A stretch of DNA of 64,000 nucleotides from Vitis vinifera (Eukaryota; Streptophyta; Magnoliopsida; Vitales; Vitaceae). A program made the translations under genes and the position numbers. The notes under the pieces are model-generated. The model was not told the origin of the DNA. It was given only the letters and a program-made list of their open reading frames with translations, and searched no databases. This document shows, in pieces, positions 31,769-41,650 of the stretch. The stretch covers positions 28,056,001 through 28,120,000 of the forward strand of contig NC_081818.1 of the NCBI RefSeq assembly GCF_030704535.1, read 5' to 3'. The first letter of the stretch is position 1; the number at the start of each line of letters is the position of its first letter.

Positions 31769-34700
31769 ATGTCGGGGAAAGCTCTCAGAGATCTCAATAT
31801 GCTACCTGGATTGGAAAGGAAGAATGAAAACTCCAGTAAAGGAAGTCTTACCAAGCCTTGTGTTGAGAACTCTAATGAAAATTCTGAAGAATGGAAGAGG
31901 AAAAACTCTTCCTCTTTGGTTTCAACACCAAATAATGGTGATGAAACCATAAAACCTGAGGTAGAGATAGCAAATACAGAAGTAGAATATATTGAATCTG
32001 AGAACTTGAACGATTTGGATGATGTGGATATGAGTCTAAAGGTATGACACTTTCTCATGATGCTTACACTAAACTTCTGAAGTATGTTAGATCGTTTATT
32101 TCTGTTGATATTTTCATAGATACTCCAGTATTTTTAGGTCAACTGTTTGTATGATGCTTGCATTTCTTACTTCTTTCTTAGACACTCCTAGATGGACTAG
32201 ACTCTAAAGACTGGGTTTTGGTGTGTGAAGCACTCAACAATGTACGCAGATTATCCATTTTTCACAAGGAAGCAATGCTCAATATGCTGTAAGTCTTAAA
32301 TTCTTATATGATAAATATGATTTAAAGAACTGAGGGATTTCAAATTTCTTCGTTTTTTTTTTTACTAATTTAGTGTTTGATAGTTTTTATCTATTTGACG
32401 ACCCATTCATCGCCGCAATGTTTTATGTACAGAGAGAATGTGATCCCACTTATTGTGAAGTCCCTGAAGAATCCAAGAAGCGCTGTTTGTAAAACTGCAA
32501 TTATGACATCTGCAGACATCTTCAGTGCCTATAGTGATCATATAATTGATTCACTGGACCCTCTGGTAACTTTTTTTTTTTGTTTTTTTTCTTTTATATT
32601 GAACCATGACTTCTAGTTAACCTCTTTGTGCATAAGTGTTCGTGTGTGCCTCTGTTTTTCTTTTTTTCTTTTTCTCTTTGCAAAGGTATCTTGCCTTAAC
32701 ATTTGAACTGATTTTTCTTTTTTTATTTTCCCAATGTGATCAAATGTTGCGGGTTCAGCTTGTACAGCTCCTTCTCAAGTCTTCGCAGGATAAAAGATTT
32801 GTATGTGAGGCAGCTGAGAGAGCTTTAATAGCAATGACAACTTGGATTTCCCCTATAACTTTGTTACCAAAGTTGCAACCCTATCTCAAGAACAAGAATC
32901 CTCGAATACGAGCAAAGGCATCAATGTGCTTTTGTCGAAGTGTTCCAAGACTGGTAAGAAATAGACTTTAGATATACTCCTTTGCTATGATTAGTGATTT
33001 TCTTTTTACTGTGACATTCAATACAAAATAATCCAAATGAGCACAATAAATAACAACACATAAATATTGAGAAACTTGTAATACTTGTACTCACAGCAAA
33101 AATCCCCAATTGAAACACTGTTAAGCATTAAATACAAAACAATCCTGAGATATCATAATCTCAGTGAAACCCTAATTTACCAAAATAGAACTCAAAAATT
33201 ATCTACAGATCACACAACATATCAAAGTACAAGATTATATCATTGATTCGTAATCAATCACCAAAATTGGAACTTTAGGATTTCTTACAAAAGAAAACAG
33301 AACAACCCAGATCCCAAAATCCTAGCTTTGCCATTTTGCATATGAAATTAAAAAGGCAACAGAATTGAGAAAAGATTACCTTCAAATTGGTGACATTGAT
33401 GGTCGTCATGGTGAAGATGGGCGTCGGCATGGTGACTGAATCTCCCTCTCTTTCTCTTCTCTGTGTGTGAATTGTGAATTTGAAACCCTAGCCTGAAAAT
33501 ATAGAGAGAAGGTTTGGGCTTGTCCATCGCATGTCTAGGACGTGTCTGAATTTAAAAGAAATATTTTTTGAAGCTCTAGGACGTGTTCAACATGTACTAG
33601 CATGTATGACGCTTGTCTAATTGTGTCTGAGGCCTGTCCATTTTTGCCACGATAGTGAGACTTGCATGGTGCATGTATGGGATGTGTTTGTGTTTAAAAG
33701 AAATTTTTTAATATTCCATATTGCGTCCAGCATGTATCCAATTGTGTCATCTCTGGCATGTGCTCTGATGTTGTTGCTATAGTCCCTTCAGAAGGTGTTT
33801 ATGCTTCATGGGTATTACCTTACCTTATACTACTTGTCTGTTTAATTTGGTGAACTTGGGAATTTTATGTTGGATACCAATGTTTTTTTTTTAAAAAAAA
33901 AAAAATTAAGTTTTGGCCTGAACATCCCTTCAATGGTCAACTAATTTAAATTATCCTTGCATGGTCATTTTATCCCCTTTTTAGTGATTGGCTTACATCC
34001 AATTAACTTTATTATTATTTCTGTTATTTATTTTAAGTTTTATTTTAAATATCCATTTTTGGCAGCTGATATAAAGTATCCTTATGCTGTTTATCAATAG
34101 GCTTATACTTTCAATTTACTCTGTTATTATTACCCCTGTGATAGTCAAGAAACTTTTTCCAGTAAAGACATTTTTTGATCTATCTTGTTGTAGTCTATTG
34201 GCCCCTTTTTTCATATGAACTGTCAGGTTATTTGCTGTTTTTTATCTGCCTTTTTAATCTTTGTGAGCTTAATGAGAAAATTGCTCTGAAATAGAAACCC
34301 AGGAAAAAAAATTTCAGCCAAAAAACTAAGGGTTAAACATTTTCAGCATTGGATGCAAGCACTTAACAGTGGGCCTGGTTTTTCAGGGTTCGTGTATCTT
34401 TTACCAGGATGATAACAACTCAAATTATAGTGACTTATAATTATGAGTACTGGTATATAGTGACTTATAAACCACGAATTAAACTGATCCTGCTATGCAA
34501 GGAAAACCCAAGAAAAATTTCCATCCAAAAAACCCAGGATGCATCATTTTCAGCATTAGGTACTGACACTTTAGGGTGGTTTTAAATCATTTCAATATAT
34601 TAGTTGTTTACCAAGGTTTTTGGATATTTTTTATAATGATAACACCAACAACAATGATGATTCTTCTTTTACTTGTAGTATTATGATTATAATACTATTA

Positions 34701-35133
34701 TGCAGATTGAACAACTTTTGGGATGAGATTGCAGTGTAAACCGTCAATTGTACTTATTAGTTGTATCTTTTATTTTCACTTGGTGGTAATTATCAATTTA
34801 TGTTCATAATACTTTTGTTACATGTGTTTATTTTGTGTCAATCAACAGGGAGTTGAAGGAGTAAAAGCATATGGGATTGACAAATTGATCCAAATAGCTG
34901 CGGCTCAGCTGAGCGACCAGCTTCCTGAGTCTAGGGAGGCTGCTCGGACCCTCCTTCTGGAGCTGCAAAATGTATATGAAAAGTCTCACGAGCATGCACC
35001 AAATACAGTTTCTGAGCAACAGGAGATGGGTTCCTGGGAGCACTTTTGTCAATCAAAGCTCTCTCCTCTAAGTGCACAAGCTGTACTTCGTGTTACCAAT
35101 ATTGCTCGGGAAGATCTTGTATTGGGTTCCTGA
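31769..35133 (+). CDS. TOG/HEAT-repeat (ARM-like superfamily) protein, At3g01450-type
   Basis: Five coding exons: 31769-32041, 32182-32288, 32433-32565, 32759-32953, 34849-35133, all GT-AG and in phase, giving 330 aa. The first 91 residues are acidic and low complexity (MSGKALRDLNMLPGLER...). The rest is helical repeats: GLDSKDWVLVCEALNNVRRL, SLKNPRSAVCKTAIMTSADI, LLLKSSQDKRFVCEAAERAL and NPRIRAKASMCFCRSV are successive HEAT/TOG-type helices, as in the N-terminal region of CLASP and TOGARAM-like proteins. TOG modules bind tubulin, so a microtubule role is plausible but not shown for this small plant family. The gene diverges from MBD9, as in Arabidopsis. Intron 4 (1.9 kb) is unusually long and contains foreign-looking sequence. 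Confidence 0.9.
33010..33800 (-). other. First-exon-like fragment antisense in TOG/HEAT intron 4
   Basis: Read on the minus strand, about 33500 down to 33380 gives GGCTAGGGTTTC, a GA-rich leader, an ATG at 33431 opening a 17-codon frame (MPTPIFTMTTINVTNLK) and a donor-like AAG|GTAATC. This layout matches a leader plus first coding exon of an unidentified plant gene. The adjoining 33530-33780 repeats GTGTCTGA/GCATGT-type words seen in dispersed plant repeats. No second exon or element ends were found. Confidence 0.4.
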
Positions 35134-40217: not shown

Positions 40218-40225
40218 TACATAAG

Positions 40226-41642
40226 TAGGAATGGCAATTTCGCGGGTTTCCCGGGTCACCCGCCCCGACCCGCCCCTATTGGGACGGGTATAGGAACATG
40301 GCAATCGGGGATGGGCCGGGTTCAGGATTTTTTTTAAAACCCGAATCGGGTTCGGGGCGGGGTCGGGTGTAGTTATAATTTGCCCCGCCCCGAATATGAA
40401 ATTACTACTTTACCCCCCACTTATAAATATTAGCTTCCTCTCCTCATTTTAGGTCTTCTTCTCTCAGTTCTTGTTCCTGTCGACGCTAGGGTTTTTCCTC
40501 CCACTCAATGGAGAAATCCATCAGATAATCCATTCCAGTTTTTTGTTGATTTTTTGGTTGAATGATGCCTTGATTTGGTGTTGTATTTCGTTTCTAATTC
40601 GGGAATGAGATACGAGATTTAGGATTTTTCCATTTCCAGTTTCAGATTATTGAAGGATTTTTTTTTTCTATTAGTTTTCGGGCTGCTATTTAGGGTTTTG
40701 AATCCGTTTCTTGCGAATCTTAATAGGGGCTAAGCAGATCTTATCGTCAAAGCCACTGATTCCTTTAAATCAATCAAACGCTTCAATCTTCCGGACACAC
40801 ACACGCTCTCTGTTTGGATCTGTTTCTTTCTCTCTCAAAGAAATGGCTCTGAGGTCTCTGGATAATGCTCTCCCGACAACACTGGAAAGGCCCAAAAAGC
40901 AAGCGAAAGTTGCAGTTTCAATTCAGAAACAGTCTGATTTTGGTGTGAATGATGAGAACAAAGCTCCATTACCACCAACTGCAGATGCCACCATTGACTA
41001 CATCTCTTTTGAGAATCTTAAAGTCATGCCTGACCCAGAAACCCAGATAACTGTAAGTCTCCCTCTCTCAGTGGCTCCTCTGGAGGGAAAATTTACTTGT
41101 GATTTGAGTTAATTGTGTGTATTTCGTTTGGAAATGAAGGGTTTGACTGAGGGATTGGATTCCAAGGATTGGGCCAAGGTGTGTGAATCTCTTAACGACG
41201 CTAGGCGGTTTGCGTTGTATCATTCCGCTCTGATGGCACCGATCTTGTAAGGGAATTTCTAATTTTGAAATGTTTTTCGGAAAATGAAGATGGGGGTCGG
41301 CTGATGTTTGTGGTGTTTGCAAAGAAAAAGTGTTGTTGGTGCTGGTGAAGGCCATGAAGAACCCTAGAAGTGCTCTGTCCAAGACCTTTATCATGGCTTC
41401 AACTGATATCTTCAATACTTTTGGTGATAAGTTGCTTCCGCCCCACCCCGCCCCGCCCCGACAACACATACCCGGGTCGGGACGGGCCGGGGATGGGATT
41501 TAATTTTAACTCTATAACGGGGATGGGAATGCCCCGCCCCGCCCCGCCCCGGGTTTGGGACGGGTTTGGGAAATAACTAAATATTTTGGGACGAGAATGG
41601 GATAGGGGTGACCCGTCCCAAACCCGCCCGTTGCCATTCCTA
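40226..41642 (+). mobile_element. hAT-type element carrying a captured gene fragment (Pack-TIR)
   Basis: Twelve-base inverted repeats TAGGAATGGCAA (40226) and TTGCCATTCCTA (ending 41642) bound 1417 bp. The flanks TACATAAG (40218-40225) and TACGTAAG (41643-41650) are an 8-bp target duplication with one mismatch, as expected for hAT elements. Subterminal regions (about 40240-40395 and 41437-41630) are packed with GGGGCGGG/CCCGCCCC words. Between them is the promoter, leader and first three exons of a TOG/HEAT-family gene. There is no transposase. Gene-fragment capture by hAT elements is known but less common than Pack-MULEs. Confidence 0.85.
40843..41436 (+). pseudogene. Captured 5' portion of a TOG/HEAT-repeat gene
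   Basis: Exon 1 (40843-41052) begins MALRSLDNALPTTLERPKKQ; exon 2 (41140-41246) encodes GLTEGLDSKDWAKVCESLND; exon 3 (from about 41325) encodes VLLVLVKAMKNPRSALSKTF and stops at GDKLL, where transposon GC-rich sequence begins. Exon phases match exons 1-3 of the complete gene at 31769, but the N-terminus differs, so the source is a paralogue elsewhere. The exon 3 acceptor reads TTGCAAAG; comparison with the expected phase suggests an AG-to-AA change at 41322. Everything after the third exon is missing, so no complete protein can be made. Confidence 0.85.
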
Positions 41643-41650
41643 TACGTAAG

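Follow-up and report, generated by a model that had tools for sequence, protein, structure and literature searches.

The window analysed here is a stretch of 64,000 nucleotides from Vitis vinifera (C14:28056001-28120000). Located on its plus strand at 40226-41642 is an element of 1,417 bp, and alignment accounted for its entire length by the ends of a hAT transposon and a captured gene fragment, the cargo, enclosed between them. The same window holds a TOG gene at 31769-35133. The features of the element and its immediate flanks are listed below by position in the window.

40218..40225, no strand: left target-site duplication, TACATAAG, 7/8 bases identical to the right copy
40226..40237, plus strand: left terminal inverted repeat, TAGGAATGGCAA, 12 bp, identical in 8/8 chimeras
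40226..40751, plus strand: the hAT's own 5' end with GC-rich subterminal repeats, promoter-like region and leader
40422..40429, plus strand: TATA-like box TATAAATA within the transposon's own 5' region, function putative
40747..40751, plus strand: left capture junction, 5-bp microhomology TCAAA, in which hAT relative and donor gene agree
40752..40842, plus strand: captured pre-ATG donor sequence (5' UTR or proximal upstream), 91 bp
40843..41052, plus strand: captured exon 1, starting at the ATG
41053..41139, plus strand: captured intron 1, GT..AG retained
41140..41246, plus strand: captured exon 2
41247..41322, plus strand: captured intron 2, acceptor AG changed to AA in the window copy only (1/8)
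41323..41437, plus strand: captured part of exon 3, 115 bp (donor exon 148 bp)
41438..41443, plus strand: right capture junction, 6-bp microhomology CAGCCC, reading CCGCCC in the window copy
41444..41642, plus strand: the hAT's own GC-rich 3' end, common to L017, L018 and L019
41631..41642, minus strand: right terminal inverted repeat, TTGCCATTCCTA on the plus strand, 12 bp
41643..41650, no strand: right target-site duplication, TACGTAAG

A sequence-only reading of this DNA had described a non-autonomous hAT element, and this identification was borne out by the termini, the target duplications and the existence of siblings with the same ends. The 12-base inverted termini (TAGGAATGGCAA/TTGCCATTCCTA) were present at 40226 and 41642, the flanks TACATAAG/TACGTAAG matched at seven of eight bases as expected for the 8-bp duplication with one mismatch that it had reported, and the GC-rich subterminal repeats formed runs visible by eye. 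TAGGAATGGCAA was found at both ends of all eight chimeric copies, while the right terminus of the relatives L020, L021 and L022 carried one mismatch. Duplications of 8 bp were perfect in all seven sibling chimeras and likewise in each of the five relatives L018-L022. In addition to 8-bp target duplications and short inverted repeats shared family-wide, the hAT superfamily is represented here by a relative encoding a transposase with a dimerisation domain. The window copy itself is devoid of transposase sequence, as had been stated, since only hAT ends and cargo lie within it; no transposase match was detected in the seven siblings either.

When the 495.6-Mb genome (21 contigs) was searched with the cargo only, nine of nine scored candidates matched, corresponding to eight elements and a single donor locus on another contig (C5:3216014-3216719), in which exons and introns are both represented and to which the cargo is 97% identical. 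The donor gene that the earlier reading had expected the genome to contain was thereby located, and the cargo, being genomic gene sequence with its donor elsewhere in the genome, shows the hallmark of Pack-type elements. The donor comprises five exons that encode 297 residues when joined at the splice sites, and its product matched CLASP_N at residues 106-269 (39.8 bits, cut-off 27) without any PDB sequence match at E 0.01. Only about 40752-41437 (~0.69 kb) was captured: 91 bp preceding the ATG, exons 1 and 2 with both introns, and an incomplete exon 3. The cargo had been correctly recognized as a TOG/HEAT-type 5' gene fragment, as it contains the start codon, exons and introns of a CLASP_N/TOG gene. 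Its description as the first three exons was accurate for two whole exons, two introns and the start codon, but exon 3 is cut after 115 of 148 bp. In total the fragment codes for 144 of the 297 donor residues, and its share of the CLASP_N match is limited to the beginning. The majority sequence of the cargo and the donor exons were distinguished by four changes, all of them silent, which is expected for a donor under constraint.

Another genome search, in which 40 of 456 candidates were scored, likewise recovered siblings with the same termini and cargo, of the kind that a search with these termini had been proposed to look for. The eight chimeras are scattered over five contigs (two each on C14, C6 and C1, one each on C8 and C17). 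Their target duplications are perfect in the siblings and differ from each other in all seven, which identifies these copies as transpositions and not as segmental duplications. The left junction as well as the donor-side right breakpoint was identical in 8/8 chimeras, even though L014 had lost part of the hAT side beside the right junction. These shared breakpoints show that there was one capture event, which was followed by amplification to at least eight sites. All eight chimeras differed from the donor at five sites; at three others the window copy retained the donor base while the seven siblings shared another base, and for this reason the window copy probably belongs to the earliest branch (support 0.89).

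Relatives free of TOG cargo were found to share the hAT 5' end up to 40751 (L017 and L025-L028) or 40711 (L018). Long stretches of hAT transposase were present in L018, L025 and L028. The 9,410-bp relative L018 (C7:3611470-3620879) has a perfect target duplication, shares both of its ends with the window copy and encodes a transposase in two open stretches with hAT RNase-H and dimerisation domains (PF05699, 5.8e-32; PF14372, 5.1e-32), while its zf-BED match remained under the cut-off (19.7 versus 20.6 bits). L025 also codes for hAT RNase-H and dimerisation domains, and the transposase stretch of L028 contains three stops. Inspection by eye suggests that the leader of these relatives terminates in a splice donor, the motif of which is altered in L028, and that the transposase ATG follows only after a long intron. 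If this interpretation of leader and intron holds, the capture brought the gene fragment into the former intron 1, downstream of the transposase promoter.

Both junctions of the chimera are marked by microhomology. Among 200,000 random breakpoints drawn for each side, using one hAT relative per side, a microhomology of at least 5 bp as on the left occurred in 0.72% and one of at least 6 bp as on the right in 0.13%. The sequence CAGCCC at the right junction is shared by the donor, L017 and six of the eight chimeras; as part of a GC-rich repeat tract, this match could to some extent be due to chance. We favour template-switching repair as the probable source of the cargo on the grounds of these 5- and 6-bp microhomologies and because, at the level of alignments over 60 bases, the 9.9 kb surrounding the donor locus contained no hAT match except the cargo itself. 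According to this model, a break in a longer, transposase-bearing hAT member would have been repaired by copying some 0.69 kb of 5' sequence from an unlinked CLASP_N/TOG gene, with template switches at the microhomologies, so that the cargo would replace everything between the apparent transposase intron 1 and the 3' subterminal repeats. L018 is not the direct parent, since the match to its 5' end stops at 40711. The resulting chimera kept both hAT ends, which suggests that full-length relatives mobilised it in trans; its dispersal to no fewer than eight sites implies mobility as such. Transcription, if any, would begin at the promoter of the hAT itself and continue into the gene fragment. The cargo is not visibly held by selection and is decaying in the manner usual for methylated transposons. 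Taken as a whole, we consider it very likely that the element is a Pack-type non-autonomous hAT with this combination of a repair-copied, unlinked TOG 5' end, mobilisation in trans, a hAT promoter and decaying cargo.

The main competing route to the same structure is the fusion of two hAT insertions flanking the donor 5' end, followed by mobilisation of the compound element. Fusion of neighbouring insertions is the model favoured for Pack-TYPE elements, and in maize such hAT elements form clustered local insertions (PMC8903248). Excision could have erased the flanking insertions from the surroundings of the donor, whose 9.9 kb contain no further hAT match over 60 bases, but the location of both microhomology-bearing junctions well inside the element fits better with repair, and we rate fusion as unlikely.

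The chimera displays signs of decay in several of its copies. A net 95 bp of the leader, including the putative splice donor, is deleted in the window copy; this segment is present in five of the seven siblings, and the remaining two exhibit a larger deletion in the region. The fragment had been described as in-frame, which applies to the captured codons, but not to the window copy as it would be spliced: with AA instead of AG at the intron-2 acceptor, use of the next AG leads to a stop after 119 residues and retention of intron 2 to a stop after 106. A three-exon product from this copy is therefore unlikely. With the donor splice pattern applied, four of the eight chimeras (L009, L012, L013 and L015) were open with canonical splice sites, and in the other four the frame was broken by early stops (L010 and L011), a 16-bp insertion with frameshift (L014) or the loss of the acceptor (window copy). 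The 51 distinct coding changes were divided into 28 missense, 19 silent and four stops, against 31.6, 17.5 and 1.9 expected without selection. This small test, in which L014 was scored in the frame of the donor, revealed neither an excess of silent changes nor detectable purifying selection on the cargo across the eight copies. C>T or G>A accounted for 67 of 85 substitution cells, which are counts of sequences rather than independent events and have no control region as baseline; 29 of these fell on 62 CHG sites, 16 on 28 CG sites and 22 on 211 CHH sites. The highest density of such changes at CG and CHG is usual for methylated transposons, and the pattern suggests that the cargo is or was methylated.

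Judged by the four open frames, some of the copies may be expressed. The chimera could even have been recruited, either with transcripts or small RNAs that regulate the donor or with a truncated protein that interferes with TOG proteins, and such a role could coexist with the origin by repair proposed above. The TATA-like box and the start codon were kept in 8/8 copies and half of the frames are open, which speaks for recruitment. On the other hand, selection left no detectable trace, the remaining half of the copies acquired early stops, a frameshift or a splice-site loss, the encoded portion contains less than the complete CLASP_N match, and in the window copy four short upstream ATGs precede the gene's ATG downstream of an assumed start near 40450. 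Recruitment thus appears improbable.

The proposal that the transposon had captured the promoter and leader of the TOG gene along with its first three exons, and that the fragment would consequently be under the control of its own promoter, is highly improbable in the light of the alignments. Donor homology begins only at 40747-40752, about 350 bp further right than the assumed cargo start of 40400, and neither the TATA-like box nor the leader occurs in the aligned donor stretch. The same box and leader occur in hAT relatives without TOG cargo (the box for example in L028), and these features can be assigned to the 5' end of the hAT itself. For the sequence before 40747 the own-promoter reading was refuted, as this region is hAT and not donor. 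The 91 captured bases directly upstream of the donor ATG might nevertheless include part of the donor's 5' UTR or core promoter. By alignment, the overall structure is that of a transposon 5' region joined to a gene fragment.

The TOG gene at 31769-35133 had been assigned to the same family as the cargo and regarded as distinct from its source, and both statements agree with our comparisons. Between this gene and the donor protein 128 of 296 aligned residues were identical (43%), compared to 97% DNA identity between the cargo and the C5 gene. The window gene was consequently rejected as donor and represents, by these values, a paralogue of it. Its position about 5 kb from the element is most simply a coincidence, given that copies of the element are scattered over five contigs. 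That the element region could instead be a normal gene, or a pseudogene derived by duplication of this nearby paralogue, is next to impossible considering its far closer match to C5, the inverted repeats and target duplications that bound it, and its seven dispersed siblings.

Gene capture was not limited to the TOG fragment, and the wider family captures repeatedly. At least three captured gene pieces are present in L018. One is kinesin-motor sequence, identical to C19 at 809/811 positions; a second, of glutamine-amidotransferase type (GATase_2), is 98.5% identical to C16 and recurs on C12 beside the right end of this family; a third is eS12-like, with 95.8% identity to C11. There is a 3-bp overlap between the kinesin and GATase_2 pieces; for these two only, the donor side was decided by eye from flanking open frames. 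With two mismatches in 811 bp to its likely C19 donor, the kinesin piece suggests a recent capture that could be traceable across cultivars. A more far-reaching interpretation, decidedly unlikely in its entirety, would be that of a recently or still active gene-shuffling family that tolerates cargo at two places, intron 1 of the transposase gene and its 3' side. Pieces of unlinked genes would be joined there repeatedly by template switching, some of them, like the TOG fragment, behind the transposase promoter, and some of the chimeras could be expressed, with effects on the genes they came from via small RNAs or truncated proteins.

Exons and introns of genes have been reported within grapevine hATs, above all Hatvine-6 (Benjak et al. 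2008, PMC2528002). In Hatvine-6 the transposase and termini are common to the members, the rest being unique or present in few copies and often genic (PMC2528002), and the family members fetched here similarly shared transposase and inverted repeats around a variable captured interior. The tabulated inverted repeat (13 bp) and target duplication (9 bp) of Hatvine-6 differ from the 12 and 8 bp of the element described here (PMC2528002), which may reflect a difference in how the ends were drawn. Hatvine-10 is tabulated with 5.5 kb, an 11-bp inverted repeat and an 8-bp target duplication (PMC2528002), and the family could possibly also be this one, both having been compared by tabulated description. 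HEAT, microtubule, TOG domain, CLASP or TORTIFOLIA are absent from the main text of PMC2528002. A literature search for a TOG domain, CLASP or TORTIFOLIA fragment in a grapevine transposon yielded none among the matches listed, although the element may have been catalogued before. The process as such is known, grapevine hAT transduplication having been published in 2008, and the element is an apparently new, unusually well resolved example of it.

Comparable captures were described for other hosts. Maize Pack-hATs are hAT elements with captured coding DNA as well (PMC8903248); besides the difference in host, the junctions of the grapevine element are more indicative of template switching than of neighbouring-insertion fusion. 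The maize elements Ds2 and Ds-l4 also combine hAT ends, an 8-bp target duplication and an intron-containing fragment from another chromosome; in contrast to these, the hAT 5' region is retained here upstream of a sense-direction fragment and one capture is present in eight copies (PMC3260210). Animal Pack-TIRs exhibit breakpoint microhomology, were explained by a gap-filling model and include a multicopy hAT case in frog, whereas the element studied here resides in a plant and had most of its interior replaced (PMC8277862). For comparison, the median gap in single-copy animal cases was 4.6% of element size (PMC8277862).

With transposase-bearing relatives, the donor, both junctions, a probable early-branching copy and seven siblings, one genome holds the components from which this capture can be traced, and such traced cases help to decide how cut-and-paste transposons gain host DNA. 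Gene capture by plant transposons is reportedly also the subject of a 2026 review (PMC13317346).

Several additional observations were made among the members of the family. In L027 (4000-5300) and further members, a coiled-coil piece matching C5:5759734-5760705 at 98% identity adjoins a second piece that matches C2:1430997-1431344 at 97%, the two overlapping by 11 bp. This cargo, apparently from two sources, is located on the strand opposite to the transposase, and its 395-residue coiled-coil product in L027 gave only a sub-threshold Pfam match. LTR-retrotransposon pieces (gag_pre-integrs and SH3_retrovirus) were detected in the interior of L026 (3859-4979). At L031, for which no right end was found, zinc-knuckle gene pieces that may belong to the element lie at 876-2548, in the same orientation as and downstream of a transposase. 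L017 (C10:2301902-2307746) has both family ends, but the 8 bases flanking them differ and form no target duplication; an aberrant insertion or recombination of two elements may account for this. Over 2.2 kb, L017 is 97% identical to a site on C14. At C15:2158129-2158399 two matches to the GATase_2 cargo were observed side by side without an intron-sized gap, which looks like an intronless copy.
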